A stretch of 53,204 nt of DNA, from positions 1-53,204 of the forward strand of contig JAHJNJ010000021.1 of assembly GCA_018820925.1 (NCBI GenBank), read 5' to 3'. Numbering within the stretch: the stretch's first letter is position 1; each line of letters opens with the position of its first letter. The DNA comes from Gammaproteobacteria bacterium (GTDB lineage: Bacteria; Pseudomonadota; Gammaproteobacteria; Burkholderiales; Gallionellaceae). Made by a program: the position numbers and the translations under genes. Shown here piece by piece: positions 30,503 to 52,146 of this stretch. Below the pieces are notes generated by a model that was not told the DNA's origin, ran no database searches, and worked only from the letters and a program-made list of their open reading frames with translations.

Positions 30503-30652
30503 ATGTTGGACGAGAACGCGGGGCTACAGGTGGTGGATTTGTTCTGTTGGGGTATTGCCCGCAAAGACGGGCTTGGTGATGCAGAGTGGTACGCTGTGTT
30601 TCAGGATAAGGTGAACTTCACGACGATCTACTTGCCGGAAAACGGGCAATAA
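30503..30652 (+). pseudogene. DUF3800 C-terminal remnant (49 residues)
   Basis: A short frame begins with ATG directly after the DUF6933 stop. The text LQVVDLFCWGIARK followed by WYAVFQDKV resembles the conserved C-terminus of DUF3800 (RNase H-like) proteins, which is normally preceded by about 180 residues. The N-terminal parts are missing, so it is most likely a deletion remnant that brought the DUF6933 gene next to it. It could be expressed by stop-start coupling. Confidence 0.55.
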
Positions 30653-35161: not shown

Positions 35162-36154
35162 ATGAATCGGGACAAATACGCAAATACGCTGGAGTGGTTG
35201 AAGACGAATCCATCCATGGACGAACTGTGTGCAAAATTCCCCGACGATTGGGCGGCTGTGCAACAGGATATTTCCGGAATCGTCGGGCGCGGGGTCGCGG
35301 AGGAACTGAAGGCCTATCTGGAGCGTATCTCCAAACCGGTGCAGCCGGTTGCTGGGAATCAACAACAACACCGGGATGCCGCACTGTCGCAGTTCGTGCG
35401 CAGCCGCATGGCGCATGAATCGGTCAGGAAGCTTTGCCTTTCCGTGCTGGCCGCGGATACGGGGGTGAAGCAGGGCAAGCTGCGTTTCAATCTGTTCAAC
35501 GGCTTTGTTGCGCAGCGCCTGCTGTTTTCCGGGGGGCTGGTACGCAAGCCGGTTTCGCTGTTCTGGTTCCGCTTGCTATGGCCGCTGGTGTGGCAGAAGA
35601 AGCGGCTGATGCCGCTGGTGCAACCCAAAGGGATTTATTGTTTCTATTCGCGCGCGTTGATCGAGGCGCTGGCCGGGATGATCGCGGGGAGAAGCTGCCT
35701 GGAGATCGGCGCGGGCGACGGTACGCTGGCGCGCTTCCTGAAAGCGCAGGGCGTGCAGCTGACCGCCACGGATAATCACGGCTGGGAAAAGTCCGTGGTG
35801 TATCCCGATTGGGTGCTCAAACTGGACGCGCGCGTGGCGTTGAGGACTTATGCGCCGGAAGTGGTCATCTGCTCCTGGCCTCCGGCGCAGAATGATTTCG
35901 AACGTGCAGTGTTCGACACGCCCAGTGTGCAGCTGTATATCGTCATCGGCAGCCGTCACCAGTTCGCCTTTGGCAACTGGAAGGATTACACAGGGCAATC
36001 CGCTTTTGTTCTGGAGGAGGACAAGGCGCTCAGTGCACTGGTATTGCCGCCGGAACTGGAATCGGTCGTGTATGTGTTCCGGCGCAAACCGCAAGTTGCG
36101 CAGCACGTACGCCGGACTATTGTCCCAGCTTGCGATACAAGGTCTGGCGGCTGA
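35162..36154 (+). CDS. SAM-dependent methyltransferase
   Basis: 330 residues from the ATG at 35162; a longer frame reaches 34916 but that part looks non-coding. SAM-binding motif I CLEIGAGDGTLARFL (about 180-194) and the acidic ATDNHGW strand (about 202-208), then VVICSWPPAQNDFE, indicate a class I Rossmann methyltransferase. The N-terminal 150 residues are helical and unrecognised. The end overlaps the tail of the convergent sigma-54 regulator by 38 bases. Substrate unknown. Confidence 0.72.
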   Translation: MNRDKYANTLEWLKTNPSMDELCAKFPDDWAAVQQDISGIVGRGVAEELKAYLERISKPVQPVAGNQQQHRDAALSQFVRSRMAHESVRKLCLSVLAADTGVKQGKLRFNLFNGFVAQRLLFSGGLVRKPVSLFWFRLLWPLVWQKKRLMPLVQPKGIYCFYSRALIEALAGMIAGRSCLEIGAGDGTLARFLKAQGVQLTATDNHGWEKSVVYPDWVLKLDARVALRTYAPEVVICSWPPAQNDFERAVFDTPSVQLYIVIGSRHQFAFGNWKDYTGQSAFVLEEDKALSALVLPPELESVVYVFRRKPQVAQHVRRTIVPACDTRSGG

Positions 36155-38024: not shown

Positions 38025-38132
38025 GTGTGTCTCTCTCCCGGCGGTGTGTTGCACTTTCTGTTGCTGCTTTTTTGGTCAAGTATAGGACGATGGGAATGCA
38101 GTGCAATACCTGCGCCCTGAAAAACTGTCCGA

Positions 38133-38151
38133 CTGTCTCGTTTTGCGACAG
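38133..38151. promoter_or_regulatory. Candidate activator-binding palindrome (UAS)
   Basis: CTGTCTCGTTTTGCGACAG is a near-perfect palindrome (TGTC...GACA arms) about 100 bases before the sigma-54 promoter, the usual distance for an enhancer site. It lies between the regulator and its presumed target. Confidence 0.5.
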
Positions 38152-38245
38152 GTGTTACGGGATGGAACGTTGCAGCGCAAATACCCGCTTTCGCATATCG
38201 ATTGAATTACCTCATTGAATCAATGTTTCATCTTACCCACGGACC

Positions 38246-38261
38246 TTGGCACGTTACTTGA
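38246..38261 (+). promoter_or_regulatory. Sigma-54 (-24/-12) promoter of the aldehyde dehydrogenase gene
   Basis: TTGGCACGTTACTTGA matches the -24 element TGGCAC perfectly and the -12 element as TTGA for TTGC, with the right GG-to-GN spacing. It implies a leader of about 150 bases that includes an end fragment of the dispersed repeat (38341-38368). Confidence 0.65.
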
Positions 38262-38422
38262 GTAAGCAAGCGTGCAGCATTGAAGTGGGAGCGATCCGTT
38301 TGATCGTTAACAAACCCGGATTGACCATTAGCAGAAATATCCCCTCCCCCTTGCAGGGGGAAGGAACTGGCTCTGCCCAATGGACGATCGGGGATAAACA
38401 ATTACACAGAGGAGAAAACAAA

Positions 38423-39943
38423 ATGATTTATGCAGCCCCCGGCGCGTCTGGCGCGAAGATCGCCTACAAGAAACAATACGACAACTTCATCAACGGCAAG
38501 TGGGTCGCCCCGGTGAAAGGCCAGTATTTCGAAGTCGTCACGCCCATCAGCGGCAAGGTCTACACCAAGGCCGCGCGCTCCGGTGCGGAAGACATTGAAC
38601 TGGCACTCGATGCCGCGCATGCCGCAGCCGATGCATGGGGCAAGACCTCGATCACCGAGCGTTCCAACATCCTGCTCAAGATCGCCGACCGCATCGAACA
38701 GAATCTCGAAGTGCTGGCCTACGCCGAGACCGTCGACAACGGCAAGGCGATCCGCGAGACGCTGAACGCCGACATCCCCTTGTCCGTCGACCACTTCCGC
38801 TATTTCGCCGGCTGCCTGCGCGCGCAGGAAGGCAACATGTCCGAGATCAACGAGAACACGGTGGCCTATCACTTTCACGAACCGCTGGGCGTGGTCGGCC
38901 AGATCATTCCGTGGAACTTCCCGATTTTGATGGCAGCGTGGAAACTCGCCCCCGCGCTCGGCGCCGGCAACTGCGTGGTACTGAAGCCCGCCGAGTCCAC
39001 CCCGATCAGTATTCTCATTCTGGCCGACCTCATCGCCGACCTGCTGCCGCCGGGCGTGCTGAATATCGTCAACGGTTTCGGCCGCGAAGCCGGCATGCCG
39101 CTGGCGACCAGCAAGCGCATCGCCAAGATCGCGTTCACCGGTTCCACCACCACGGGCCGCGTCATCGCGCAGGCCGCAGCGAATAATCTGATCCCGGCCA
39201 CGCTGGAACTCGGCGGCAAGTCGCCCAACATCTTCTTCGCCGACGTGATGGACAAGGACGACGGCTTCCTCGACAAGGCCATCGAAGGTCTGGTGCTGTT
39301 TGCCTTCAACCAGGGCGAAGTGTGCACCTGCCCGTCGCGCGCGATCATCCATGAATCCATCTACGACAAATTCATGGAGCGCGTGCTCAAGCGCGTGGCC
39401 GCCATCAAGCAGGGCAACCCGCTCGACACCGACACCATGATGGGCGCGCAAGCGTCGAAGGAACAACTGACCAAGATCCTGTCCTACCTCGACCTCGGCA
39501 AACAGGAAGGCGCCACGGTGCTGGCGGGCGGCGCACAGGCCAAGCTGGGTGCCGATCTGGATGGCGGCTATTATGTGCAGCCCACGCTGTTCAAGGGCCA
39601 CAACAAGATGCGCATCTTCCAGGAAGAGATATTCGGCCCCGTGCTGGCCGTGACCACCTTCAAGGACGAAGCAGACGCGCTCGCGATCGCCAACGACACC
39701 CTGTACGGGCTCGGCGCCGGCGTGTGGAGCCGCAACGGCAACGTCGCCTACCGCATGGGCCGCGCCATCAAGGCCGGTCGCGTGTGGACCAACTGCTACC
39801 ACGACTACGCAGCCGGTGCGGCCTTCGGCGGCTACAAGGAATCCGGCATCGGTCGCGAGACGCACAAGATGATGCTCGACCACTACCAGCAAACCAAGAA
39901 CCTGCTGGTGAGCTACAGCGAGCAGAAGCTGGGGTTCTTCTAA
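38423..39943 (+). CDS. NAD-dependent aldehyde dehydrogenase (AldB/ExaC type)
   Basis: 506 residues from the ATG at 38423 (GAGGAG upstream). Signatures are [19 protein letters not shown], the NAD-loop FTGSTTTGR, catalytic Glu in [12 protein letters not shown] and catalytic Cys in [12 protein letters not shown]. The start MIYAAPGA and length fit the AldB/ExaC acetaldehyde dehydrogenases. Preceded by a sigma-54 promoter and a divergent AcoR-like activator, and followed by a DUF779 gene, a frequent companion. Probable role: oxidation of acetaldehyde or related aldehydes to acids. Confidence 0.93.
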
Positions 39944-39962
39944 ACTTGGAAGCAGACCTGCT

Positions 39963-40117
39963 CCTTCCCCCTTGCAGGGGGAAGGTTGCACCCGCAAGGG
40001 GTAGGCCGTGGTTGTAAGGGGCTTGTGCCCCAACAACACACGCACGGATGGGGGTAGAGTAGCGAAACGGTAGCGTCTCTACCCCCACCCTAGCCCTCCC
40101 CCTGCAAGGGGGAGGGG
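39963..40117 (+). repeat. Dispersed 160-bp repeat, copy B (inverted relative to copy A)
   Basis: It matches the reverse complement of 14287-14450 (see that entry). It lies between the aldehyde dehydrogenase stop and the composite palindrome at 40127-40257. Together these two elements fill most of the 400-base gap before the DUF779 gene. Confidence 0.85.
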
Positions 40118-40126
40118 ATGCAGTTC

Positions 40127-40257
40127 GTAGGATGGGTTGCAACAAAGTCAGGCAATCTGCTATCGAGCAAGCTCGATGCAGAATTGACACAGTGCAGCGA
40201 TACCCATCGTTTTGACAGATGCCGATGATGGGTATCGCGTTGCTCAACCCATCCTAC
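40127..40257. repeat. Composite palindrome with three nested stems
   Basis: The outer arms 40127-40139 and 40245-40257 are 13-bp perfect complements. Inside are ATCGAGC/GCTCGAT (40162-40168 with 40171-40177) and GCGATACCCATC/GATGGGTATCGC (40197-40208 with 40227-40238). The last pair is shared with the repeat at 4-68. Confidence 0.85.
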
Positions 40258-40343
40258 GGTGGCTATTCATTTTCACCCTTGCCGCCTCCCGGCGGCCTTC
40301 ACGGGGCGGGCAACCGCCCCGCGTTTCTTTGGAGGTAACCATC

Positions 40344-40703
40344 ATGGTCGAAAAAGTGATCGCCACCGACGCAGCACTCGAACTCATCGAATTCCTGAAA
40401 CAGAAACACGGCGAACTGATGTTCCACCAGTCCGGTGGCTGCTGCGACAACAGCGCCGCCAACTGCTATCTGCCGGGCGAACTCACCATCGGCGCGGGCG
40501 ACGAATACCTGGGCGAGATCGGTGGTTGTCCTTTCTACATCAGCAAATCGCAATACGAATACTGGAAACACACGCAACTCATCATCGACGTCACCGAAGG
40601 GCGCGGCGGCACGTTCTCGCTGGAAGGACCGGAAGGCAAGGCGTTTCTCACGCGTTCGCGGGTGTTTACCGATGCCGAGTGGGCGGAGTTGTCGGCAGAG
40701 TGA
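40344..40703 (+). CDS. DUF779 family protein
   Basis: 119 residues from the ATG at 40344 (GGAGG upstream). Family features are FHQSGGCCDNSAANCYLPGE with the Cys-rich motif, and FYISKSQYEYWKHTQLIIDV. DUF779 genes are usually found next to AldB/ExaC aldehyde dehydrogenases, as here, so an accessory role in that pathway is likely. The cysteines suggest metal binding, not shown. Confidence 0.85.
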   Translation: MVEKVIATDAALELIEFLKQKHGELMFHQSGGCCDNSAANCYLPGELTIGAGDEYLGEIGGCPFYISKSQYEYWKHTQLIIDVTEGRGGTFSLEGPEGKAFLTRSRVFTDAEWAELSAE

Positions 40704-40856: not shown

Positions 40857-41369
40857 CTATACGCCGCCGCCCCGGTGAATGATGGCGTAATAGAGTTTTT
40901 CCAGTTCCAGTTTGTGCCGGGTTTCTTCGCTGGTGAGATATTGAAACAGGTCGCGGATCGGGCCGGGCGGCGCGGTTTGTGCGAGTTCGCCGTAGTGCTG
41001 CATGGCGGCTTGTTCGCGGCCCATGGCATATTGCAGCACCGCCTGGTCGTCCGGCTGTTCGCCCAGATCGTGCACTTGCAGGCAATCTGAAAACTTGCTG
41101 TCGCTGGCAGTACGCTGGATTTCCAGTTTGACCTGTTCGGCGATGTCGGCGCGTTGGGACATGGCGCTGAACAAGTCGAAGTGAGTCTGTTCTTCCGCCG
41201 CCAGGTCTTCGACCAGATAGCGAATGCGTTTGCTCACCCTGGGAATCAGCGCGGTATAGAAATCACGCGCACTGGCCTCAAATCCGGTCGCCACTTCCAG
41301 GACCTCGCGCAATGTCGTCTTGCCGCGCAAACTTTCCATGCCCCGGCTTGCATCTCCGTTTTGCGTCAT
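40857..41369 (-). CDS. Ferritin-like (rubrerythrin-type) di-iron protein
   Basis: 170 residues from the ATG at 41369, which overlaps the stop of the upstream gene (ATGA). A four-helix di-iron pattern: ATGFEASARDFYTAL (E, Y), LAAEEQTHFDLF (EExxH), AMGREQAAMQHYGEL and LTSEETRHKLELEK (EExxH). It lacks a C-terminal rubredoxin domain, so it is not a full rubrerythrin. As the last gene of the 13-gene operon it may protect against peroxide or hold iron for the complex. Confidence 0.8.
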   Translation of the reverse strand: MTQNGDASRGMESLRGKTTLREVLEVATGFEASARDFYTALIPRVSKRIRYLVEDLAAEEQTHFDLFSAMSQRADIAEQVKLEIQRTASDSKFSDCLQVHDLGEQPDDQAVLQYAMGREQAAMQHYGELAQTAPPGPIRDLFQYLTSEETRHKLELEKLYYAIIHRGGGV

Positions 41370-43165
41370 TTTGTCTGCTCCTTTGCGGCTATCGCTTCGT
41401 GAATGCTGGCCGCGACGCGATGTCCGTCGGCCACCGCAGTCACCACATCCGGGCCGCGCACCATATCTCCGGCGGCCCACAACCAGGATTCGCTGCTGCG
41501 CCCGCCCGCGTCGACTTGCAGGCGGCCGCGGTTCCACGTCAGTTTTTCCGTCAGCGCATCGCCCAGCAGGCTGCTATCGGTCATCTGGCCGATGGCCTCG
41601 ACCACCATGCTGCCCGCGTGGAACTGTTCGTCACTCTCGTCGTAGCTTGGCGCAAAGCGGCCTTGCTCGTCGAAAATGGCCTTCACGCGCCACGTTCTCA
41701 GCCCTGTCACCTTGCCGTTTTCGACGACCACTTGCTGCGGGCCGCGCGAATCGAGGATGACGATGCCTTCTTCGCCTGCCTCCTTGATTTCTTCGGGATC
41801 GGCGAGGAAGTGGGCGCGGTCTTCCAGCGCAGTCAGCGTCACCTGCACCGCGCCGAATTTCTGCTTCTGCAGGCGGGCAAGCGTGCGCGCAATGTCCATG
41901 GCCACGTTGCCGCCGCCTATCACCACCGCCTGACGCGGTGTGCCGAAATCCTCGTTGGCCGTGGCTTGACGCAACAGATCGACCGCTTTGCGCACGTCGG
42001 CATGGTCGCTGCCGGGGATGCGCGTGGCGCGGCCGAGTTGCAGGCCGAGCGCCAGCAGCACGGCATCGTGGCTGTCGCGCAGTTGCTCCAGCGCAATATC
42101 CTTGCCGATACGCACATTGCAGCGGATATCGACGCCGACCGAGCGGATCACGTCGATGTCGCGGTCTATGCTTTCATAAGGCAGGCGATATTCCGGAATG
42201 CCCCAGCGCGTCATGCCGCCGGGTTTGTCCAGCGCTTCGTACACGGTGACGCTGTGTCCCAGTTTGGCGAGATCGAAGGCCGCAGTGAGCCCGGCCGGAC
42301 CCGCGCCGATGATGGCCACTTTCCTGCCCGTGGCCGGACCGGGGCCGCCGACAATGTCGCGGCATTGTTCGAACGACACCTGGTCCATGATGTGGCGCTT
42401 GAGCCAGCGGATGGCAATGGGGTCGCCCTCGTGGCGGGCGGCGCAGGTGGTTTCGCATTTGTGCGTGCAGACGCGGCCGCAGATGCCGGAGAACGGATTG
42501 CTGTCGTAGAGCAGCTTGACCCCGCGCAGGTAATCTCCGTCGCGCACGGCGGCGATGTATTCGGGAACCGCCATGTGGGTCGGACAGGTGGCGACGCACA
42601 GGCCGCAGGCGACGCAACGGTCGGCCTCCAGACGCGCCTGTTCGATGCCATAGCCGTCGACGATTTCGGCAAACGATTCGATGCGCGTCTCCGCTTCCAT
42701 CTCGCCCATTGCAATGCGGAATTGCTCCGTGAGCCGGTGTCCGTCGGGGCGCCGGTAGCCGAGCTCGGCGTTGTCCCAGTGTTTCTTGTCCACGCCCGGC
42801 GTGAAGCGGAATGCATCGGGATCGCTTTCCACCCAGGTGTAGGCGTTCGACATCGTGAGCGACTGGGTCATGCACACATCGACGCACAGCGCGCACCAGC
42901 AGCAGCGGCCGTAGTCGATGTTGGGACGCAGGCCGGAATCGCCCTGTTTGGTCGGGATGCCTTCGACCGGCACCATGTCGATGGCTTTGTTCTGGCAGAT
43001 CGCTTCGCACGTGCCGCAACCGATGCATTTCTCGATGTCGTTCTGGTGGAAGCCGCGATAGCGGGGCGCACCCGGACGGTCGTTGAGCGGATCGCGAATG
43101 GTCACCGGGTCGCGGAACAGGTTCTTCCACGCGGTAAAGGGGGAGAGGAGGTCGCGTACGCTCAT
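41366..43165 (-). CDS. NuoI/GltD-like Fe-S flavoprotein oxidoreductase
   Basis: 599 residues from the ATG at 43165, two bases after the NuoD-like stop. N-terminal NuoI-like ferredoxin: CIGCGTCEAIC (47-57) and CCWCALCVDVC (88-98), each a 4Fe-4S motif. A third CVACGLCVATC (184-194) leads into the GltD-like domain I with CGRVCTHKCETTC (229-241). FAD site VAIIGAGPAGLTAAFDLAKL (283-302) and a second nucleotide-binding site AVVIGGGNVAMDIARTL (about 419-435) complete it. It would move electrons between NAD(P)H and the NuoB/D-like subunits. A glutamate synthase role is unlikely as no large subunit is near. Confidence 0.87.
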   Translation of the reverse strand: MSVRDLLSPFTAWKNLFRDPVTIRDPLNDRPGAPRYRGFHQNDIEKCIGCGTCEAICQNKAIDMVPVEGIPTKQGDSGLRPNIDYGRCCWCALCVDVCMTQSLTMSNAYTWVESDPDAFRFTPGVDKKHWDNAELGYRRPDGHRLTEQFRIAMGEMEAETRIESFAEIVDGYGIEQARLEADRCVACGLCVATCPTHMAVPEYIAAVRDGDYLRGVKLLYDSNPFSGICGRVCTHKCETTCAARHEGDPIAIRWLKRHIMDQVSFEQCRDIVGGPGPATGRKVAIIGAGPAGLTAAFDLAKLGHSVTVYEALDKPGGMTRWGIPEYRLPYESIDRDIDVIRSVGVDIRCNVRIGKDIALEQLRDSHDAVLLALGLQLGRATRIPGSDHADVRKAVDLLRQATANEDFGTPRQAVVIGGGNVAMDIARTLARLQKQKFGAVQVTLTALEDRAHFLADPEEIKEAGEEGIVILDSRGPQQVVVENGKVTGLRTWRVKAIFDEQGRFAPSYDESDEQFHAGSMVVEAIGQMTDSSLLGDALTEKLTWNRGRLQVDAGGRSSESWLWAAGDMVRGPDVVTAVADGHRVAASIHEAIAAKEQTK

Positions 43166-43167
43166 GG

Positions 43168-44358
43168 CTATCTCTCGATCTCGGGCGGATAGGTATGCAG
43201 CGACACCATCAGCGAGGCTACATCGGAAATGTTGATGTTCACGATCAATCGTTCCAGCAGCGTCATGGCGTGGGTGTACGAAGGGCCGCGCACATTGACG
43301 CGGCGCGGATAACCGCTGCCGTCGGCAACCAGGTAGTAGCCGTATTCGCCGCGCGAGCACTCGCCGCGCACATAGGTTTCGCCGCGCGGAATTTTCCAGT
43401 GCAGCACGTTCGGCACGCTGGCCATCAGCGGGCCGCTGCGCGGCATTTTGGCGAGAATCTGGCGCACCAGATCAATCGACATCAGCACATCGCGGCGGCG
43501 CACGTCGGCGCGGGTGTAGATGTCGGAGTCGTGCCCGATCACCGGCTCGAAATCGAGCTCGGGATAAACCAGGTAGGGATGATCCCTGCGTACATCTTTG
43601 GGCACTCCGGCCGCGCGGGCGTTCGGCCCGGTAACCCCATAAGCATCCAGCAGCGCCGGGTCGATGATGCCGACGCCGACCGTGCGCTTCTTGAACACGG
43701 CGTTGCAGAACATCACCTCGTACACATCCTTCAGCGTGCTTTCCATTTCGCACAGCGTTTCTTCCATGCGCTTGTCGAAGCCTTCCGGCAGGCCGTCGCG
43801 CACACCGCCGGGCAGGATGAACATATGGTAGATGCGCGCGCCGGTGAGCTCCTCGAAGCGGTCGAGCATCAGGTCGCGTACATAGGTGGTCCACTGCGCG
43901 ATCACTCCCAGGCCGAGTGCGCCGGCCTGTCCGCCGAGGTACATCATGTAACTGTTGATGCGCCCCATTTCGAGAATCAGCGTGCGTATCCAGTCGGAAC
44001 GCTCGGGCGACTTGATCCCGGCCAGTTCCTCGACGGCGGCGGCGTAGCAATATTCGTTGAAATCCGGCTCGGGCACGCAGATGCGGCAGACGATGGGGAA
44101 GCACTGGATGAACGTGCGCCGTTCCATCAGCTTTTCGAAACCCCGGTGCAGATACCCGACGTGGACTTTGCCTTCCACCACTTCGTCGCCGCACACGGTG
44201 AGTTCCACCGACATATTGCCGGTGATGCCGGGATGGTTGGGTCCCTGCCACAGCTTCAGGTATTTGCCCGAGGCGAGGTCGATGTCGAGCGTGCCGTCGG
44301 CTTTTTGAGCCGGGTACTGGCTGCGGTCGGGCGTAAACAGGGGCGAGTGATCTGTCAT
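43168..44358 (-). CDS. NuoD/[NiFe]-hydrogenase large-subunit-like protein without Ni ligands
   Basis: 396 residues. Family pattern: LWQGPNHPGITGNMSVELTV, HVGYLHRGFEKLMERRTFIQ, ILEMGRINSYMMYLGGQAGA and RGECSRGEYGYYLVADGS. The [NiFe] proximal motif RxCGxC is changed to RICVPE (92-97) and the C-terminal DPCxxC to a sequence ending LHTYPPEIER, so no Ni-Fe centre can form. The complex I quinone tyrosine equivalent is not conserved either (the hydrogenase-type Cys sits where complex I has Asp). It ends one base before the flavoprotein start region and is preceded by the NuoC-like gene with one base between. Confidence 0.85.
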   Translation of the reverse strand: MTDHSPLFTPDRSQYPAQKADGTLDIDLASGKYLKLWQGPNHPGITGNMSVELTVCGDEVVEGKVHVGYLHRGFEKLMERRTFIQCFPIVCRICVPEPDFNEYCYAAAVEELAGIKSPERSDWIRTLILEMGRINSYMMYLGGQAGALGLGVIAQWTTYVRDLMLDRFEELTGARIYHMFILPGGVRDGLPEGFDKRMEETLCEMESTLKDVYEVMFCNAVFKKRTVGVGIIDPALLDAYGVTGPNARAAGVPKDVRRDHPYLVYPELDFEPVIGHDSDIYTRADVRRRDVLMSIDLVRQILAKMPRSGPLMASVPNVLHWKIPRGETYVRGECSRGEYGYYLVADGSGYPRRVNVRGPSYTHAMTLLERLIVNINISDVASLMVSLHTYPPEIER

Positions 44359-44359
44359 T

Positions 44360-44890
44360 TCAATTACCGCCCGGATAGAGTTTTTGCTTCATATGTTCGG
44401 CCGGATCGTGGGTTACCCGGCCCGGTCGCTGACTGTAGTTTTCCTCGGCGTATTTCAATGTGTCGAAATCGCGGCGGTAGGGCGGAATGTCGTTCCAGCC
44501 TTCCAGGATGAATTCCTCGTTCACGCGCGGGCTGTCGGGAAATGCGATGCCGAACATTTCGCGCAATTCGCGCTGATAAGTCGCCGCAGTCGGCCAGATG
44601 TCATGGATGCTTTGCATGGTCGCCGCGTCGCGCGGCAGCATGACCCGCAGCCCGAGCGTGCGCTGTTCCTTGCACCGCGTGAGCAGATAGGTGAGCTGGA
44701 AAATATTGTCCTCGATCCAGTCGACTGCGGTCAGCAGGACGAGGTGGGTGAAGCCTTCCCGGTCGCGCAGGTGCAGCAGCAAAGAACGCAGGTGTTCCTG
44801 CGGCACGGTAATAAAGGCCAGATCCTGCCGCTGCTCGGTCAACTCGCCGAGCGGGAACAGATTCTTGAGTTTGCTGTGGAGTTCGCGCAT
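44360..44890 (-). CDS. NuoC-like subunit
   Basis: 176 residues from the ATG at 44890; the upstream part of the long frame is a shadow of the NuoB-like gene. The 30-kDa-subunit signature is clear: DREGFTHLVLLTAVDW, NIFQLTYLLTR, AATYQRELREMFGIAFPDSP and EGWNDIPPYRRDF. NuoC is part of the peripheral Q-module. It follows the NuoB-like gene by eight bases and precedes the NuoD-like gene by one. Confidence 0.9.
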   Translation of the reverse strand: MRELHSKLKNLFPLGELTEQRQDLAFITVPQEHLRSLLLHLRDREGFTHLVLLTAVDWIEDNIFQLTYLLTRCKEQRTLGLRVMLPRDAATMQSIHDIWPTAATYQRELREMFGIAFPDSPRVNEEFILEGWNDIPPYRRDFDTLKYAEENYSQRPGRVTHDPAEHMKQKLYPGGN

Positions 44891-44898
44891 TGTTTTCC

Positions 44899-45540
44899 TT
44901 ACCAGCTGTAATCCGGCATATCCCAGTCGTGGATCACCCGTTTCTGGTTTGCCTTGTACCAGTCGAAATTTTCGGCGTAGCGGTTGGCGCCTTCGCCCTT
45001 GCCCGCGCGGATGAGTTTTTTCATGTCCTGGAATCCCGCCAGCAGCGCCTCCGGGCGCGGCATGCAACCGGCGATATACAGGTCGACCGGCAGATAATCG
45101 TCGAGCCGCTTGATGGTGTTGTAGGAGTCCCAGTACATGCCGCCGTTGATGGTGCAGGAGCCGAGTCCGATAACGTATTTGGGGCTCTGCATCTGCTCGT
45201 AGGAACGGATCGCGCGCTTGAGCGTCTTGACCGACAGGTAGCCGGAGATGATCAGCAGGTTGGCCTGGCGCGGCGTGGGGCGCCATTGCACGCCGAAGCG
45301 GTAGGCATCGAAACGCGGTGTCATCAGCGGGCGCATCTCGATCGCGCCGCAGCCGGTGCCGAAGCCGAGAATCCAGATCGATTCCGCGCGCGCCCAGTTG
45401 AACAGGTCTTCGACGATCTGGATGTAGGCGCCCGGCATCACCGTGGGAGCCGCTTCGCAGTAATAGTCGCGCAGCGGCTCGACCTCGAATTCGACGCCAT
45501 CCGGGCCTTTGATTACGCGAATTTTCAACTCTTCTTTCAT
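44899..45540 (-). CDS. NuoB-like Fe-S subunit with an altered N2 ligand set
   Basis: 213 residues. GTGCGAIEM (61-69), IGLGSCTINGGMY (124-136) and IAGCMPRPEALL (156-167) are the three Cys segments of the 20-kDa subunit. Complex I has a tandem Cys-Cys at the first position; here the second is Gly65, leaving Cys64, Cys129 and Cys159. An upstream Cys28 might serve as the fourth ligand. The ATG has GAGG upstream. It follows the NuoH-like gene after a 153-base gap with a palindromic element. Confidence 0.88.
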   Translation of the reverse strand: MKEELKIRVIKGPDGVEFEVEPLRDYYCEAAPTVMPGAYIQIVEDLFNWARAESIWILGFGTGCGAIEMRPLMTPRFDAYRFGVQWRPTPRQANLLIISGYLSVKTLKRAIRSYEQMQSPKYVIGLGSCTINGGMYWDSYNTIKRLDDYLPVDLYIAGCMPRPEALLAGFQDMKKLIRAGKGEGANRYAENFDWYKANQKRVIHDWDMPDYSW

Positions 45541-45561
45541 CTTGCAAACCTCGTGTGGTTT

Positions 45562-45621
45562 TGTAGGTGCGAATTCATTCGCACACCCAACAAACCTCGT
45601 GCGAATAAATTCGCACCTACA
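45562..45621. repeat. Inverted repeat between the NuoH-like and NuoB-like genes
   Basis: Arms 45562-45584 and 45599-45621 are complementary at 22 of 23 positions (TGTAGGTGCGAATT outer). An 11-base direct repeat CAAACCTCGTG occurs at 45545-45555 and 45591-45601. This sits inside an operon whose other joints are tight, so it may cause partial termination or stabilise the upstream or downstream mRNA. Confidence 0.85.
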
Positions 45622-45693
45622 GAAGAGCCGTAATCATTGGAATGGAATGAAGGTTCAATCGCAATTGAGAAATTCATGGTCATGGGAGCTCCG

Positions 45694-46599
45694 TCACACC
45701 AATATGATTGAAAGAATGCCCAGCGGCACGGCCCAGATCAAGAACCAGCGGATCGACTGCTCGACGCGGAAACGCGGGAACACCACACCGACGAAGGCCG
45801 ACCACAGATAGATCAGGAATACCTTGAGGAAGAAGGTGGGCCAATCGCTTGCCCCGCCGAAAAACAGGTTCATGTAGATCACAATCTTGGCGACCGGAAA
45901 GAGCGCGCGATTGGTCTGCATCAGGGCAAGGTAGGAGGAGTGATACTCGGTCGGCGGCCCGATGGGGATTTCCTGCGGCGCGAGCACGACATCGAACGGC
46001 GGGCGCATCATCGAACCGAGGAAGGACAGCATCGCCGCCGCAACCGCGACCGGGTTGGTGAACAGCGTCCAGTTCAGAATCCCGCCCTGTTGCGCCGCGA
46101 CGATCTCGGTGACCGACAAAGTTTGATACTGGAGCGCGACCGAAAATACGGCGAGTGCCAATGGCAGCTCGGAGGTGGTGACCTGAGACAGTCCGCGCGA
46201 GACACCGATGGCGGCATAGGGATGCCCGCTTTCTCCCGCCCCGAGCGCCATGCCGAGCGTGCCGAAGAAAATAAAATACAGCGCCAGAATCAGGTCGCCC
46301 GCGAACGACAGGTTCGAGAACATATACGAGCCATAGATGGCGGGTACGAACAGCAGCAGGCCGACACCACCCGACAGGCGGAACACCGGGCCGAGATAGA
46401 ACATCGCGCCGTGGGTGATCGACGAGCGCAGCCCGTAGTTTTTGAGTATGTCCACGTAGTTTTGCCAGATCGGGATGCCGTGCCGGCGCCCCACGCGCGC
46501 GGCGATTTTCTGGATCAGGGCGTTGAGCAGGAAGCCGTAGTTGACGACGATGAACAGCGTCAGCAGGGCGTAGGGGATTTTCATCCAGTCAAACTCCAT
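45694..46599 (-). CDS. NuoH-like membrane subunit (respiratory complex I subunit 1 family)
   Basis: 301 residues from the ATG at 46599. About eight membrane helices are predicted. Conserved blocks are GIPIWQNYVDILKNYG, GAGESGHPYAAIGVSRG and the long PPFDVVLAPQEIPIGPPTEY loop near the Q-side. This subunit couples the peripheral arm to the membrane arm. It starts two bases after the double antiporter gene. Confidence 0.9.
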   Translation of the reverse strand: MEFDWMKIPYALLTLFIVVNYGFLLNALIQKIAARVGRRHGIPIWQNYVDILKNYGLRSSITHGAMFYLGPVFRLSGGVGLLLFVPAIYGSYMFSNLSFAGDLILALYFIFFGTLGMALGAGESGHPYAAIGVSRGLSQVTTSELPLALAVFSVALQYQTLSVTEIVAAQQGGILNWTLFTNPVAVAAAMLSFLGSMMRPPFDVVLAPQEIPIGPPTEYHSSYLALMQTNRALFPVAKIVIYMNLFFGGASDWPTFFLKVFLIYLWSAFVGVVFPRFRVEQSIRWFLIWAVPLGILSIILV

Positions 46600-46601
46600 G
46601 A

Positions 46602-49600
46602 TCAGACTCCCGTCCACAGGAAATGTACGACAACCACGAAGGCGATGAAGTGGAAGGCGTAGCTTTGTCCATTGCCGTTATACAGGCGCCGCGACAGGTC
46701 TGCCGCAACGTGCAGAAGATTGGTCAGTCCCTCCCAGAAGCGCGTGACAAAGGGCTGCACCATGAATCCCAGCGCCTTGCGGTAGGGCGCGAAAAAATTC
46801 CAGGCGAAGTGGGTGGTCTCCGGCCGATAGGGGCGTTCGCCCGCGAACACGATGTTGAACTGTTTGACCTTCTGCGCCTTGCGGTTGACGAACAGCAGCC
46901 AGGCAAACAGCGAGCCGAAAATTACGGCCACGGCTATCATGATCGCAACCGGATTCCAGTAGCCATAATTACTGGAAATGGTGGTGCCCGCCCAGTTCAA
47001 GCCGCCTTCGGGGAAGAACTGGTTGAGATAGATATCCACACGGCGCAACGCGAGACCGGGAACCACGGCAAATACCAGCAGCAGGACGACAAAAATCATC
47101 TGCGGCAGGATGATCCAGAACGGCGCCTCCTTCAGTTTGCGGTGTTCGTCCTTCAGCTGGCCGAGGAAAACCGTATGGATCAAACGGAACAGATAAAGGA
47201 AGGCAATCGGCCCCGCGAAGAACAGGACAACCATCGGCAGGCGCGCATCGGAAGTGAGAATGGCGTTGTAGAAGATCCAGCGCCCGCCGAAGCCCGACAG
47301 CGGCGGCACGCCGGAGACGGCGATGATGCCGATCAGGGTGGCGATGAACGAAAGCGGCATTAGCGTGATCAGGCCGCCCATGCGGTACATGTCGCGCGTG
47401 CCGGTGCGCTTGGCGACGCCACCCGCCGACAGGAACAGCATCGACTTGTAGATGTAGTGGTTGATGACGAACATCAGCGCCATCAGCCAGCCCAGATGGT
47501 TCATCAGCGCCAGGCCGAACACGGCATAGCCCATCTGGCCGATGGAGGAATAGGCCAGCAGACGCTTGGCATCTTCCTCGAAAATCGCCATGAGATTGCC
47601 GAGCAGCGCAGACAGTGCGCCTATCCACAGCAAGACGTGGGTGAGTTCGATGCCGTAGAGCTGTTGCTTGCCCATGCTCATCAGCAACACGAACAGGCCG
47701 AACAATCCGGCTTTGAGCAAAATGCCGGACACCATCGGCGAAACGTCGGTTTCGGCCTCGCCGTGCGCGCCCGGCAGCCAGATGTGCAAACCGATCGCGG
47801 CGGTCTTGGTCATGAAGCCGATTGCGAGCAGCATGAACACCCAGGGCGCAAGCGGCTGGGTCAACAGGCCGAGCGAGGCGAGGTCGTACTGCGCAGCACC
47901 CTGTGCCGCCAGCGCAAAACCGGCCAGGATCAGGAAGGCGCCGCCCAGCGAGAAGACGATGTAGGAGAGTGCATGCGGCTCCGAGTGTTTGCCGCGCAGG
48001 ATGAGGAAATAGGAGCCGACCGTGAGCAACTCCCAGGCGGCAAAGAAACCGAAGCTGTCGCCGGTGCGGATCAGCAGCGCCAGCCCGGCAAACATCAGCA
48101 TCGCTGCGGGATAAAAGCCGAGACGCCGTCCGTGCTCATGGTAACTCGCGAGAAAAATGACCGGCCCACCGATGAGGATGATGACGGCAAATATCAGCCG
48201 CAAGGGATCGTATTCGGCATAGGTGAGCACAAAAAAGGCGAGCATCCCGGCAATGGCGAGGGTGTTTTTTATCCACGCGGGCAGCCATTCCAGCAACAGG
48301 AACGACAGCGCGAACAGCAGCGGCACGGTGAGCAGCAGATTGGCGTGCCCGGACAGGTCGCCCCACAGGTAGCCGAGCGCCCAGCCTGCGGCCACGGCGG
48401 CGATGACGGGCGCCAGTTTGTGCGGCGTGCAGACAACTGGCTGCGCCGGTTGTTCGCGTTTGAGGATGTAGCCGAACCAGCGGAACAGATAGCCCGCTTC
48501 AAGCAGCGCACCGAACAGGATCAGCGCCAGCAGTGCGATGCGCCCATCGCCCGCGAGCAGGCGCGCCAGTTCCCATTTGGCGTAAAAGCCCGGGAACGGC
48601 GGCAGGCCGCTGAGCATGGCGATGAAAACGATGAAAGCAAAGATGAGCAGCGGGCGGCTGCGCAGCGCGGCCCAGTCCGGCAGTGCGCGTCCGGCGATCA
48701 GGCCCGAAAGCCAGTACAGTCCGGCCTTGGCGATGGAATGGGCTAACAACAAGCCGCCCGCGACGAACAGATAGCGGTCGCCGAGAATGTCCTGCTGGCC
48801 GAGCACCGCCAGCACCAGGCCGGTTTGAGCAATCGAGGAATAGCCGAGCAGGCGCCGGTCGTTGCTCTGCGGCAAGGCCAGCAGATTGGCGGCGACGAAG
48901 GTGATGATGCCGATGCCGGTCGCCAGCGGGAACCAGGCCGCGCCGCCGATGTGCAGCAGTTTGTCGGCGGCATACAGGAATGCCGCGCCCGATGCCGCCG
49001 AGAAAATGGCCGAGAAGGCGGGGTGCGCCGACTCGTAGATGTCGAGTGCCCAGCCGTTCGCCGGAAACGGTTTCAGCTCGGCAACGACGGCGATAAACAT
49101 CAGAAAGAACGCGATTGAAGCGCCCGTTTTCAGTTCCGTGGAAGCATCGGCCATGCCGTCGATATTCAGTGTGCCGGTCGCGTGGTAGGAAAAGATGATG
49201 CCGATCAGCAGGAAGACCGAAATCGCTTGCGCCACGATCATGTATTTGAAACCGGCGGACAGGGCGCGCTCATCTTCGGACAGCAGCACCAGCCCCGCAG
49301 TGGCGATGGAAGCGAGCTCGAAAAAGACGAACAGGTTGAAAGTGTCGCGGGTGAGGATGATCCCGCACAGCGCCATCACGGCGATCAGCAGCACCGCCAT
49401 CGAACGCCGTCCCAGCGCCAGCAGGACATCTTTCAGATAGAGCGCGGAGAGCAGTCCGCTCAGGCTGACCAGCAGCGTCAGTGACGCCTCGGTCAGTCCC
49501 ATGCGCAAATTGATGGCAAAGGGCGGCGAGAAGCCCGCAGTGAGAATCTCGACCGGGGCGGCAGCGTCAACCGCGAAGGACCACAGCCATCCGGCCGATA

Positions 49601-49727
49601 CGAAATTCATGAAGACGAGCGCGGCAAGCGTCACCGCGAAGGCGGTGGCGCGCATCCCGTCTTTCAGGAACCCGAGAAAGAATGCCGCGCCCAGCGCCGC
49701 GATCAGGATGTAAATGGCGCTTACCAT
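46602..49727 (-). CDS. Fused double antiporter subunit (MrpD/NuoN-like + NuoL/MrpA-like)
   Basis: 1041 residues. The N-half (about 1-490) has antiporter-subunit signs: LFVFFELASIATAGLVLLS (key Glu), VAELKPFPANGWALDIY (key Lys) and HSIAKAGLYW (Lys). The C-half (about 500-900) has its own set: FFAAWELLTVGSYFL, MTKTAAIGLHIWLPGAHGEA and INHYIYKSMLFL. So two complete ion channels are in one chain. The last 140 residues include a charged segment (RPYRPETTHFAWNFF) and a final membrane helix. MrpA and MrpD are normally separate proteins. It overlaps the MnhC stop by seven bases. Confidence 0.9.
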   Translation of the reverse strand: MVSAIYILIAALGAAFFLGFLKDGMRATAFAVTLAALVFMNFVSAGWLWSFAVDAAAPVEILTAGFSPPFAINLRMGLTEASLTLLVSLSGLLSALYLKDVLLALGRRSMAVLLIAVMALCGIILTRDTFNLFVFFELASIATAGLVLLSEDERALSAGFKYMIVAQAISVFLLIGIIFSYHATGTLNIDGMADASTELKTGASIAFFLMFIAVVAELKPFPANGWALDIYESAHPAFSAIFSAASGAAFLYAADKLLHIGGAAWFPLATGIGIITFVAANLLALPQSNDRRLLGYSSIAQTGLVLAVLGQQDILGDRYLFVAGGLLLAHSIAKAGLYWLSGLIAGRALPDWAALRSRPLLIFAFIVFIAMLSGLPPFPGFYAKWELARLLAGDGRIALLALILFGALLEAGYLFRWFGYILKREQPAQPVVCTPHKLAPVIAAVAAGWALGYLWGDLSGHANLLLTVPLLFALSFLLLEWLPAWIKNTLAIAGMLAFFVLTYAEYDPLRLIFAVIILIGGPVIFLASYHEHGRRLGFYPAAMLMFAGLALLIRTGDSFGFFAAWELLTVGSYFLILRGKHSEPHALSYIVFSLGGAFLILAGFALAAQGAAQYDLASLGLLTQPLAPWVFMLLAIGFMTKTAAIGLHIWLPGAHGEAETDVSPMVSGILLKAGLFGLFVLLMSMGKQQLYGIELTHVLLWIGALSALLGNLMAIFEEDAKRLLAYSSIGQMGYAVFGLALMNHLGWLMALMFVINHYIYKSMLFLSAGGVAKRTGTRDMYRMGGLITLMPLSFIATLIGIIAVSGVPPLSGFGGRWIFYNAILTSDARLPMVVLFFAGPIAFLYLFRLIHTVFLGQLKDEHRKLKEAPFWIILPQMIFVVLLLVFAVVPGLALRRVDIYLNQFFPEGGLNWAGTTISSNYGYWNPVAIMIAVAVIFGSLFAWLLFVNRKAQKVKQFNIVFAGERPYRPETTHFAWNFFAPYRKALGFMVQPFVTRFWEGLTNLLHVAADLSRRLYNGNGQSYAFHFIAFVVVVHFLWTGV

Positions 49728-50077
49728 TTAAGCTCCGTGAATTTTGCGATATCGAGCGTGCGTTTCTTTTCGTAAAGCTTGAGGGCGTAGGCGAGCATCA
49801 GTGCTGTGATGCCGACGCCGATGACGATGGCGGTAAGCACCAGCGCCTGTGGCACCGGGTCGATGATGCGTGTGGCCGCCGCAGCGGCAGTGACGGTGGT
49901 GTCCAGAATCGGCGCCGTGCGGCCGGGCAGGTAGCCGACAGAGATGATGACAAGGTTGACGCCCGTATCGGCAATGCTGAAAGCGACGATCATGCGCAGC
50001 AGGTTGCGGTTGGTCAGCGCGCCGTAAAAACCGATCAGGATCAGCAGAAAGCCTGTCGCCATCGCAATATAGATCAT
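49721..50077 (-). CDS. mnhC: MnhC/MrpC-like (NuoK-type) antiporter subunit
   Basis: 118 residues from the ATG at 50077 in TGATG overlap with the upstream stop. Three membrane segments: ATGFLLILIGFYGALTNRNL, MIVAFSIADTGVNLVIIS, ALVLTAIVIGVGITALMLAY; the PVPQALVLTAIVIG block is the MrpC/NuoK signature. It carries the coupling part of the Mrp membrane arm. Confidence 0.9.
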   Translation of the reverse strand: MIYIAMATGFLLILIGFYGALTNRNLLRMIVAFSIADTGVNLVIISVGYLPGRTAPILDTTVTAAAAATRIIDPVPQALVLTAIVIGVGITALMLAYALKLYEKKRTLDIAKFTELKW

Positions 50078-50775
50078 CACAGATCCTCCGTTTCGGACAG
50101 GCTGGTCAGCATCGAGGAGAACTCGGCACCGACCTTGAGTCCGATCAGCGAATAAATCAGCGGAATCGCACCGGCCGAGATAAGTTCGCCGAGGATACCG
50201 TTGGGCAAGATGCGGCTGTCCAGAAAACCGCCCGCCAACACCAGGCCAATGAGGCCGAGCGCGATATAGGCGATTCCCGAGAACGATTCTACGGTGGCGA
50301 TCAACGTATGGCTGAAGCGTTTGAGCGGGTCGGAAAGCAGCAGCAACAGCATGCCCGAAGCGATGATCGCGCCGCCCTGGAAACCGCCGCCTGGCGTCAG
50401 GTGTCCATTCACGAACACATAGACCCCCAGCAACATGATGACGGGGGCGAGATGCTGGCTGGCGGTGGTCAGCAGCTCGCCGACGGGAACCAGGTTGCGC
50501 GGCGTTGAATCCCGTTTCCGGCCGAACGACAGCACCAGCCCCACGATGCCGGAGGCAAGGAAAAGCACGGTGACTTCGCCCAGGGTGTCGAGGCCGCGAT
50601 AGGTGACGATGATGGCAGTGACGATATTGGCCGCGCCGATGTCGCTGGCGGTATTTTCCGCATAGTAGCGGGCGGTGAAATTCAGGTCGGTGTCGGGAAC
50701 ATAGGCAAGCAGCAGGCTGGCGAACATTGCGCCGATACCGGCCAGGAGCAACAGGGCGAGGAAACGTTTAATCAT
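50077..50775 (-). CDS. MbhE/MnhB-like fused membrane subunit
   Basis: 232 residues from the ATG at 50775 (8-base overlap with the previous gene). The N-terminal part (about 1-95) is MbhE-like, with TYRGLDTLGEVTVLFLAS. The C-terminal part (about 100-232) is MnhB-like, with PVIMLLGVYVFVNGHLTPGG and GFQGGAIIASGMLLL. In Mbh-type hydrogenases these are separate MbhE and MbhF proteins; in Mrp they are the end of MrpA and MrpB. Seven or so membrane helices. Confidence 0.85.
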   Translation of the reverse strand: MIKRFLALLLLAGIGAMFASLLLAYVPDTDLNFTARYYAENTASDIGAANIVTAIIVTYRGLDTLGEVTVLFLASGIVGLVLSFGRKRDSTPRNLVPVGELLTTASQHLAPVIMLLGVYVFVNGHLTPGGGFQGGAIIASGMLLLLLSDPLKRFSHTLIATVESFSGIAYIALGLIGLVLAGGFLDSRILPNGILGELISAGAIPLIYSLIGLKVGAEFSSMLTSLSETEDL

Positions 50776-51061
50776 GCTTTTCCCCGTCATATTCGCTCTC
50801 GCCTTTTTCCCAGCTGCGGATGCGGGCCAGGACGAAGAAGAAAAGGAAGGTGGTGAGTCCGCCGCCGATGGCAGCTTCGGTCATTGCCACGTCGGGCGAG
50901 GCCAGGATCAGGAACAGCACCGATGCGAGGAGGCTGACCAGTCCGGCTGCGAGAATGGCGATGGGCAGGCTTTTGTCGCCCAATACCCGGATCGCGACAA
51001 GCGCTGCAACGAGCATGGCGATGCAAAGCACGGCGGTCATCGCCGTCATCAAGCCGCTCAT
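50768..51061 (-). CDS. MbhD-like DUF4040 membrane subunit
   Basis: 97 residues from the ATG at 51061, overlapping the MnhG stop (ATGA). Three membrane helices; the LPIAILAAGLVSLLASVLFL and ASPDVAMTEAAIGGGLTTFL blocks are the DUF4040/MbhD pattern, corresponding to part of the C-terminal MrpA region. The upstream in-frame extension is a shadow of the mnhG gene. Confidence 0.85.
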   Translation of the reverse strand: MSGLMTAMTAVLCIAMLVAALVAIRVLGDKSLPIAILAAGLVSLLASVLFLILASPDVAMTEAAIGGGLTTFLFFFVLARIRSWEKGESEYDGEKHD

Positions 51062-51399
51062 GATTTCTCCCCGGTGTCTTCGGCCAGCCGGTCTACTGCG
51101 GTCAGCGGCGATTTTGCGATACCCATGCGGTGCGCCGCGCGCGCCAGCACCTGCGAGGAGACCGGATTGGTGAGCAGGATGAACATGCCGATCAGCAACA
51201 GCTTCGTTCCCCATGCGGGTTGCAGGCAGGCTGCGCCCGCCAGCGTCAGCAGGGTACCCAGCGTGGTCGCCTTGGTACCCGCCTGGATGCGATTGTACAG
51301 ATCGGGCATGCGCACCAAGCCCAGGCTGCCCAGCAGCAGGAAGGCCGCACCGGCCACAAGCAGCAATCCGCCGAGAATGCCCAGTGGCGTATCCGTCAT
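51058..51399 (-). CDS. mnhG: MnhG/MrpG antiporter subunit
   Basis: 113 residues, three membrane helices. GSLGLVRMPDLYNRIQAGTK with ATTLGTLLTLAGA is the classic MrpG signature. It overlaps both neighbours by ATGA-type junctions. Part of the Na+/H+ antiporter-like module. Confidence 0.92.
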   Translation of the reverse strand: MTDTPLGILGGLLLVAGAAFLLLGSLGLVRMPDLYNRIQAGTKATTLGTLLTLAGAACLQPAWGTKLLLIGMFILLTNPVSSQVLARAAHRMGIAKSPLTAVDRLAEDTGEKS

Positions 51400-51656
51400 A
51401 GTCCCCGCTCCAGATAGCGTGCGACCACGATCACGCCGAGAAAGGACAGCAGCCCGTAGACCAGCGCCACATCAAGGTAAATGCCGCGTCCCTCGGACAG
51501 CGCAACGAATACGATGCCGGAGATCGCAATGATGGTCAGCACATCGAATGCCACCACCCGGTCGGCCGCCGCCGGCCCTTTGAAAAAGCGGAAAAGCGCC
51601 AGCAGGAATGCCATGCCGACCAGCGTTGCGGCCGCATAGATCAGCAGTTCAACCAT
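51396..51656 (-). CDS. mnhF: MnhF/MrpF antiporter subunit
   Basis: 86 residues from the ATG at 51656. Three helices with the MrpF blocks RFFKGPAAADRVVAFDVLT and IYLDVALVYGLLSFLG. The start lies in the end of mnhE. Confidence 0.92.
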   Translation of the reverse strand: MVELLIYAAATLVGMAFLLALFRFFKGPAAADRVVAFDVLTIIAISGIVFVALSEGRGIYLDVALVYGLLSFLGVIVVARYLERGL

Positions 51657-52146
51657 ACATGACCTCAAGATAGTGCTCGAAACCCACGACGATAGCGGCG
51701 GTTGCGGCATCGGTGTCGGTGGACTTCACGGTGACGCAGTGGATATATAGCCATTCGCCCGTCATTTCGACCGTGAGTGTGCCGGGCGTCAGCGTGATCG
51801 AGTTGGCCAGCAGGATGCGCCCCATGCGACTCTTCAGCCGGGTGCGCACTTTGACGATGCCCGGATTGAGCGGCAAGCCGGGTGAAAGCACGATGGCGGC
51901 GAGATTGAGGTTGGATTTGACCAGTTCCTTCAGGAAGAACAGGAGGTACAGCAGCGAATAGCCGAAGGCGCGCGGAGTGGGCTTGAAATCGGAAAAAATC
52001 GCGATTCCGTTCCTGAATATCAGCGCGATGATGAATGACGCAAGCACGCCGACGATGATCACATCCCCGGTAACAGACCCGTTCATCCATACCCAAAAAA
52101 AGAGGAGGGTTGCGAACAGCAGCATGAAATTCGTTGTTTTTTGCAT
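51649..52146 (-). CDS. mnhE: MnhE/MrpE antiporter subunit
   Basis: 165 residues. Membrane helices at the N-terminus, then LLYLLFFLKELVKSNLNLAA and the soluble block LANSITLTPGTLTVEMTGEW, followed by LYIHCVT, which is the MrpE signature. It is the first gene of the operon; the promoter must lie in 52147-52330 but I could not place a convincing -35/-10 on this strand. Confidence 0.92.
   Translation of the reverse strand: MQKTTNFMLLFATLLFFWVWMNGSVTGDVIIVGVLASFIIALIFRNGIAIFSDFKPTPRAFGYSLLYLLFFLKELVKSNLNLAAIVLSPGLPLNPGIVKVRTRLKSRMGRILLANSITLTPGTLTVEMTGEWLYIHCVTVKSTDTDAATAAIVVGFEHYLEVMYG

Follow-up and report, generated by a model that had tools for sequence, protein, structure and literature searches.

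The DNA analysed here (the window) is one entire contig of 53,204 nucleotides (JAHJNJ010000021.1, assembly GCA_018820925.1) from a 3.44 Mb genome placed within the Gallionellaceae. On its minus strand, from 52146 to 40857, it carries an operon of thirteen genes that resembles, in its parts, both respiratory complex I and the Mrp antiporters. Pfam and family profile searches, together with homologue alignment, recovered all thirteen genes in the order in which an initial annotation, made from the sequence alone, had listed them. They are given below in the order of transcription, with the equivalent subunits of the membrane-bound sulfane sulfur reductase (MBS) of Pyrococcus furiosus and with lengths in amino acids (aa).

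51649..52146, minus: MrpE-like subunit (MbsA equivalent), 165 aa; Pfam PF01899, 126 bits
51396..51656, minus: MrpF-like subunit (MbsB equivalent), 86 aa; PF04066, 62 bits; start from homologues
51058..51399, minus: MrpG-like subunit (MbsC equivalent), 113 aa; PF03334, 90 bits
50768..51061, minus: MbhD/DUF4040 subunit (MbsD equivalent), 97 aa; PF13244, 48 bits; start from homologues
50077..50775, minus: MbhE-MnhB fused subunit (MbsE equivalent), 232 aa; PF20501 and PF04039; 6u8y_E, 164.5 bits
49721..50077, minus: MrpC/NuoK-like subunit (MbsG equivalent), 118 aa; PF00420
46602..49727, minus: double antiporter, fused MbsH and MbsH' equivalents, 1041 aa; two PF00361 stretches; 6u8y_X, 6u8y_H
45694..46599, minus: NuoH-like membrane anchor (MbsM equivalent), 301 aa; PF00146; 6u8y_M, 141 bits
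45559..45624, no strand: 26-nt inverted repeat in the 153-nt NuoH-NuoB joint
44899..45540, minus: NuoB-like subunit (MbsJ equivalent), 213 aa, with C64, C129 and C159; 6u8y_J, 220 bits; column counts
44360..44890, minus: NuoC-like subunit (MbsK equivalent), 176 aa; PF00329, 92 bits
43168..44358, minus: NuoD-like subunit (MbsL equivalent), 396 aa, without quinone residues or nickel site; 6u8y_L, 307 bits; tree
41366..43165, minus: Fe-S flavoprotein, NuoI/MbsN-like N-terminus and GltD/NfnB-type part predicted to bind NAD(H) and FAD, 599 aa; NF010590, 871.7 bits; Fer4_20, Pyr_redox_2; fold 5jca_L
40857..41369, minus: rubrerythrin-like ferritin-fold protein, 170 aa, complete diiron ligand set; PF02915, 42.7 bits

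Gene starts were re-set by homologues for MrpF (51656), MbhD/DUF4040 (51061, the 148-aa open reading frame being a 5'-extended form of a protein whose homologue-supported length is 97 aa), the MbsE-type fusion (50775), MrpC (50077), NuoH (46599), NuoC (44890), the flavoprotein (43165) and the rubrerythrin-like gene (41369). With these starts 11 of the 12 joints measure from -8 to +8 nt, in keeping with the earlier remark that nearly all of them overlap or are a few bases wide. The only wide joint, of 153 nt between NuoH and NuoB, contains the inverted repeat, which may be an inserted palindromic element since the same gap in a relative (L037) measures only a few bases.

Kinship with MBS and MBX

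Six of the window proteins were compared with the PDB, the remaining seven genes being placed by Pfam and gene order only. For five of the six (the NuoB-, NuoD- and NuoH-like subunits, the MbhE/MnhB fusion and the double antiporter) the first match is a chain of P. furiosus MBS (6u8y). The NuoB-like subunit scores 220 bits against 6u8y_J and 136 against the next chain, the NuoH-like subunit 141 against 6u8y_M and 54 against the next, and the NuoD-like subunit 307 against 6u8y_L, 210 against Nqo4 and 139 against MbhL, while the fusion matches 6u8y_E over nearly its full length. The C-terminal half of the double antiporter (residues 468-1032) matches 6u8y_X at 193 bits, and at its N-terminus (4-260) the best stretch to 6u8y_H reaches 143.5 bits, just behind chain H of the hydrogenase MBH (144.7 bits); its AlphaFold 2 model has a mean pLDDT (predicted local distance difference test) of 73, the C-terminal half being low.

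In a tree of NuoD-like subunits (23 rows, IQ-TREE), the window family, the sequences from Delongbacteria and from genome G348, and MbsL form one clade (100/99) apart from complex I. The branching order inside this clade is unsure because of long branches, MbsL among them. The NuoD-like subunit is 30% identical to the genome's own NuoD, whose Nuo set sits on another contig. The NuoD- and NuoB-like subunits are nearest to MbsL and MbsJ, and the operon has the Mrp module, the fused MbsE and, in one chain, the two antiporter units that mark the MBS/MBX clade. Judging from these sequences, its product belongs to that clade and is not a new kind of machine; we regard it as a variant rather than MBS itself, because the MbsN-like part is fused to the flavoprotein and does not stand alone.

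The description as complex I-like with Mrp subunits therefore holds, profile and PDB matches being in agreement. A categorically new complex is rejected, since five of the six proteins searched match MBS first, and the MbhE/MnhB fusion is no novelty, being already the MbsE of MBS (6u8y_E). A group 4 [NiFe] hydrogenase of MBH type was likewise rejected because the nickel CxxC motifs are missing from the NuoD-like large subunit, in which only C94 is left of the first motif (RICVPEPD) and the C-terminal motif has no Cys.

The proximal [4Fe-4S] cluster of MBS has three Cys ligands (MbsJ C28, C93 and C123) and an open iron that is held to act on polysulfide; in the same study, mutants of C25, C85 and C385 stay active, and equivalents of Nqo4 H38 and Y87 are absent (PMC7684303). 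The three ligands align gap-free with C64, C129 and C159 of the NuoB-like subunit. In an alignment of 72 rows, C64 is Cys in all 70 lettered rows, the position of MbsJ C25 is Gly in 67 and Ala in 3, and the second tandem Cys of the complex I cluster has become Gly in 70 of 70. Among 79 NuoD-like rows, the H38 position holds Thr (T46) and the Y87 position Val (V95) in every one of the 77 lettered rows, and all 77 keep C94, the equivalent of MbsL C85; the NuoD-like protein of G348 has Glu at the H38 position and keeps Val at that of Y87. Since the three-Cys cluster is kept and the quinone residues are lost, we predict that the chemistry of MBS is retained and quinone binding is not. A plain respiratory complex I is rejected on the same grounds, the quinone-headgroup residues and the tandem N2-cluster Cys being missing.

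The flavoprotein matches NF010590/PRK13984 at 871.7 bits over nearly its full length; this is its nearest family, yet the score is under the curated cut-off of 946 bits. Thermotoga maritima was the only one of 14 control genomes with a match to NF010590 at E <= 1e-120, and its protein is over that cut-off. The first PDB matches of the GltD part are Nfn- and Stn-type flavoproteins and that of the NuoI part is MBS chain N, while the best fold is the large subunit of NfnI (5jca_L, target-normalised TM-score 0.86). Seventeen Cys are invariant in 81 of 81 rows. The residues A446-L447-E448 align on Y310-R311-R312 of NfnB, with the Glu present in 76 of 78 lettered rows and Lys in the other 2. Kinetic work has linked the Tyr-Arg-Arg motif with NADP(H), and the use of NAD(H) by DsrL-1 with the loss of that motif (PMC7596348), and because Ala-Leu-Glu replaces this NADP-type motif we predict that the flavoprotein uses NAD(H). 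The genome's own DsrL, 31% identical to the flavoprotein, has Ser-Val-Phe at the same place, which fits the DsrL-1 pattern of that work.

Genome G348, which is dsrA-positive, carries a deeper-branching MBX-like variant (L134, contig C10, 12481-16314), with identities of 49% for NuoD and 53% for the flavoprotein. An apparent flavoprotein-rubrerythrin fusion in this genome (L050/L134) was given no weight, as the flavoprotein matches in two frames, in one of them with a partial rubrerythrin match, so that an assembly error or decay is likely.

In the rubrerythrin-like protein the diiron ligands E31, E60, H63, E119, E149 and H152 (E, ExxH, E, ExxH) are invariant in 15 of 15 aligned sequences, a chosen subset, and Pfam finds no rubredoxin part. 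In the 69 loci whose sequence continues for 600 nt or more past the flavoprotein, a script placed the gene directly downstream in 56; the figure rises to 60 with four loci read by eye (L104, L113, L121, L122), in which the match lies in a longer open reading frame with the same end. Three purple sulfur bacteria have the gene upstream of MrpE instead (L084, L087, L091). It was not seen in six of the 69 (L094, L100, L109, L125, L126, L130), and none was seen in the Delongbacteria locus.

Distribution and association with the Dsr pathway

Relatives were sought with the flavoprotein family NF010590 as marker in the contigs of one genome per species (84,980 species), which gave 240 stretches with a relative; the best 80 of these were kept. 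The twelve core genes (A to L) are in unchanged order in 54 of the 54 loci, among these 80, that hold all twelve, and all thirteen genes are in identical order in each of six loci checked for them (G003, G032, G066, G086, G070, G153). Such conservation is far beyond chance: the operon is a real unit that travels together, as the suggestion that it reads as one machine implied, and the gene-order search then proposed does recover it.

The hosts include Gallionellaceae, Rhodoferax, Dechloromonas, Propionivibrio, Chromatiaceae, Thiothrix, Sedimenticola, Magnetovibrio, Magnetospirillum, Magnetococcales, Hyphomicrobiales, a single metagenome-assembled genome of Delongbacteria, and others. Culture collection strains are among the carriers (Thiohalocapsa marina DSM 19078, Halochromatium roseum DSM 18859, Thiothrix caldifontis DSM 21228), and the nearest named relative of the window with the operon is a metagenome-assembled Sideroxyarcus of the Gallionellaceae (L051). 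Within the window's genus, 4 of 34 genomes have full-length or near-full matches to NF010590, one of them cut by a contig end, and 6 of 398 sampled Pseudomonadota match at E <= 1e-120, G348 more weakly and over part of the profile. The flavoprotein also finds matches in 219 of 72,556 plasmid records, all below 60% identity; among the 30 listed, those with names are AegA, YgfT, GltD or NAD(P)/FAD oxidoreductases.

The dsrA gene was sought with the profile TIGR02064 in 50 operon genomes chosen from the best 80 of 240 loci, mostly on long contigs; three of them apparently duplicate genomes named above, G488 being G153, G489 being G086 and G452 being G032. It is over cut-off in 45 of the 50, which lean to close kin because they are drawn from the best matches, and missing at that cut-off in five (G456, G470, G480, G493, G500). 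The sampled Pseudomonadota have it in 53 of 398 genomes at E <= 1e-80 (52 over cut-off), and the operon genomes inside this sample in six of six (p = 4e-6). Within groups (E <= 1e-60), dsrA accompanies the operon in four of four genomes of the window's genus as compared with 21 of 30 others, which is uninformative alone and includes a partial match under cut-off in G003; in five of seven in Rhodoferax (the genus of G453) as compared with 22 of 82 (p = 0.025), two operon genomes thus lacking it; and in five of five in the family of G457 as compared with 42 of 194 (p = 6e-4). Stratified over groups the odds ratio is 16.7 (p = 2.6e-5), in strata that share operon genomes with the 50 and with statistics inflated by kinship within groups. 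The operon tracks the Dsr pathway, and the link also holds within groups. In one Rhodoferax genome (G453, contig C31) the operon flavoprotein (131314) and dsrA (81335) lie about 49 kb apart.

The window genome has a dsr cluster (L133, G000 contig C18) of dsrA, B, F, H, C, M, K, L, O and P, where DsrM and DsrP are under cut-off and DsrL is named by its broad family and its place. Its nifH is on contig C15, and since both are present the organism looks like a diazotrophic sulfur oxidiser. A nifH match occurs in 26 of the 50 operon genomes (E <= 1e-80) and in 40 of the 398 sampled ones, but also in 22 of the 53 dsrA-positive sampled genomes (counted by hand). As the operon genomes are not significantly above the latter (p = 0.33), nitrogen fixation was rejected as the main link.

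Elsewhere in the window, 15388-31984 is a defence-like island with HsdM and HsdR (type I restriction-modification), a Schlafen/AlbA_2 protein, a KwaB-like protein, and an AAA_21 ATPase followed by a RloB-like protein, RloB being just below cut-off. The genes beside the operon, at 36117-40703, encode an aldehyde dehydrogenase, a DUF779 protein and an activator of sigma-54 type, and seem to form an aldehyde unit separate from it. Another contig of the same genome (C24, L040, 7087-8739) has a Hyf-like cluster whose large subunit is without nickel cysteines, a type that has been described (PMC4053972).

Predicted function and its alternatives

We consider it moderately probable that the product of the operon is a bacterial complex of MBX/MBS type which moves electrons between NAD(H) and sulfane sulfur (polysulfide) and couples this to H+ or Na+ transport; the coupling of NADH and sulfur electron transfer to ion pumping had been raised in the initial annotation. 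By sequence, this prediction rests on the clade, the cluster ligands, the lost quinone residues, the loss of the NADP motif, the gene order and the association with dsrA, while we infer the substrate, the direction, the ion coupling and the role of the rubrerythrin-like protein. Electrons from NADH would enter the fused flavoprotein, travel along its FAD and Fe-S clusters and reach the three-Cys [4Fe-4S] cluster in the NuoB-like subunit, whose open iron would meet the sulfur chain in the chamber that holds quinone in complex I. This redox step would power the fused double antiporter and the Mrp module, ions being translocated through these and the NuoH-like anchor, and the rubrerythrin-like protein may be protective, clearing O2 or peroxide near the oxygen-sensitive clusters. 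Where the Dsr pathway is present, stored or poly-sulfur could serve the cell as an electron sink under anoxia. The induction of T. maritima mbxA (4.36-fold up with S0, PMC9431562) agrees with this reading.

Several points speak against it. To the kinship among the genomes counted, the operon genomes without dsrA and the enrichment of nifH, all given above, must be added that the fetched loci show no conserved sulfur gene beside the operon, the largest cluster of neighbours comprising only 12 loci at scattered distances. The position of MbsL C385 is Tyr in 78 of 79 rows and Cys in one, though C385 is dispensable in MBS (PMC7684303). AlphaFold 2 models the GltD part of the flavoprotein well and its NuoI-like N-terminus poorly (pLDDT < 50). 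With NADH at about -320 mV and the poly- or elemental sulfur/sulfide couple at about -260 to -275 mV, the transfer of electrons from NADH to polysulfide releases little energy, which is thin for two pumps and an Mrp module. No measured activity of any bacterial MBX was found in the literature searched. Finally, in the symbiont Endoriftia the expression neighbours of the Mrp-Mbx complex are the reductive tricarboxylic acid (TCA) cycle, sulfur globule proteins and Soe, whereas the rDsr genes group with the Calvin-Benson-Bassham cycle (PMC11636981), a grouping that argues against a simple joint role with Dsr.

Since the energy span is so small, the NADH-sulfane reaction would be close to reversible and its reversal by an ion gradient is plausible. 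The main alternative, though we think it rather unlikely, is therefore that the same complex runs backwards, an ion gradient pushing electrons from sulfide or persulfide onto NAD+ and sparing autotrophs the longer route through quinone and complex I. The many sulfur-oxidiser lineages among the named hosts, the company of dsrA, the closeness of the two couples and the expression shared with the reductive TCA cycle in Endoriftia (PMC11636981) are all consistent with such a direction, but the experimental hints, namely the activity of MBS and the induction of mbxA in T. maritima, are of sulfur reduction. A fuller form of the idea, which we put forward as doubtful, is that Dsr-type bacteria use the complex as a quinone-free short cut from sulfide or persulfide to NAD+, paid for by the ion gradient, and switch to NADH respiration of stored sulfur in dark anoxia; autotrophy on sulfur would then be cheaper, and sulfur globules and the NADH pool would form a reversible battery.

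An Rnf-like, ion-pumping NADH:ferredoxin (or ferredoxin:NAD+) oxidoreductase, working through the NuoI-like clusters and serving nitrogenase or ferredoxin-dependent carbon fixation, appears improbable. A ferredoxin:NAD(P)+ oxidoreductase has been proposed for P. furiosus mbx and, by likeness, for that of Thermoanaerobacter (PMC3608648), nifH is enriched in operon genomes, and co-expression with the ferredoxin-using reductive TCA cycle in Endoriftia would fit (PMC11636981). Against this, nifH goes unmatched (E <= 1e-80) in 24 of the 50 operon genomes, its rate is not significantly above that of dsrA-positive genomes, and a reaction between NAD and ferredoxin would leave the conserved chamber and the open cluster jobless. 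That the operon encodes a further complex I, one that reduces quinone but takes in NADH by a different arm, is very improbable in spite of the NuoB/C/D/H architecture and the 30% identity to the genome's own NuoD, as both quinone-headgroup residues are replaced (77 of 77) and the second tandem Cys is Gly (70 of 70), and as a Nuo set is already present on another contig.

If the NAD(H)-linked sulfane oxidoreductase reading is right, the chemistry of MBS extends from hyperthermophilic archaea to common mesophilic bacteria. To our knowledge, no enzyme has been identified by which sulfur-globule bacteria reduce stored sulfur to sulfide in the dark, and sulfur autotrophs are usually supposed to reduce NAD+ by reverse electron flow by way of quinone. 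A pump of MBS type that is widespread, tied to Dsr and predicted to use NAD(H) offers a gene cluster for both questions.

Comparison with known systems

The closest likeness is to P. furiosus MBS (6u8y), with which the operon shares the core subunits, the fused MbsE, two antiporter units, the three-Cys cluster, the loss of H38 and Y87, and the Mrp module. In contrast to MBS, where the antiporters are separate, those of the window are fused in one 1041-aa chain; its NuoI part is fused to a predicted NAD(H)/FAD flavoprotein, whereas MBS takes electrons from ferredoxin; and the operon adds a rubrerythrin-like gene and does not keep MbsL C385. The initial annotation had set the operon apart from described complexes, and this is only partly so: the clade, the MbsE fusion and the family NF010590 are known, while what distinguishes it from MBS is that its antiporters are fused, that its NuoI part is joined to a flavoprotein and that it includes a rubrerythrin-like gene. 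As for identity with a characterised complex of the same subunit set and substrate, against which that claim had been set, the clade is shared but the subunit set differs.

The MBX of T. maritima has 13 subunits and is a predicted sulfur reductase (PMC9431562). Its host encodes a flavoprotein of the same family, NF010590. The gene of this flavoprotein probably adjoins mbx. Endoriftia, a symbiont that oxidises sulfur and has rDsr genes, is described as having a "putative Mrp-Mbx complex" whose function and direction are stated to be unknown (PMC11636981); the likeness is one of description. Complex I (Nuo/Nqo) shares the NuoB/C/D/H/I families, antiporter-type subunits and NADH as predicted donor, but the window operon is without NuoEFG and the quinone residues, and it has Mrp E/F/G/B parts and a three-Cys proximal cluster. 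NfnB, DsrL and GltD share the Fer4_20, FAD and NAD(P) parts, and the genome's DsrL is also without Tyr-Arg-Arg, yet the window flavoprotein differs from them in its NuoI-like N-terminal part, as in a membrane complex.

Among the literature matches listed, in a search that left most subscription journals outside, Endoriftia is the only case of MBX in a Dsr-type sulfur bacterium. Within that scope, what appears to be new here is the spread of the operon through Dsr-type sulfur bacteria, where the MBS cluster is kept and the quinone residues are lost; the fused antiporters, the arm predicted to use NAD(H) and the rubrerythrin-like partner appear to be new as well.

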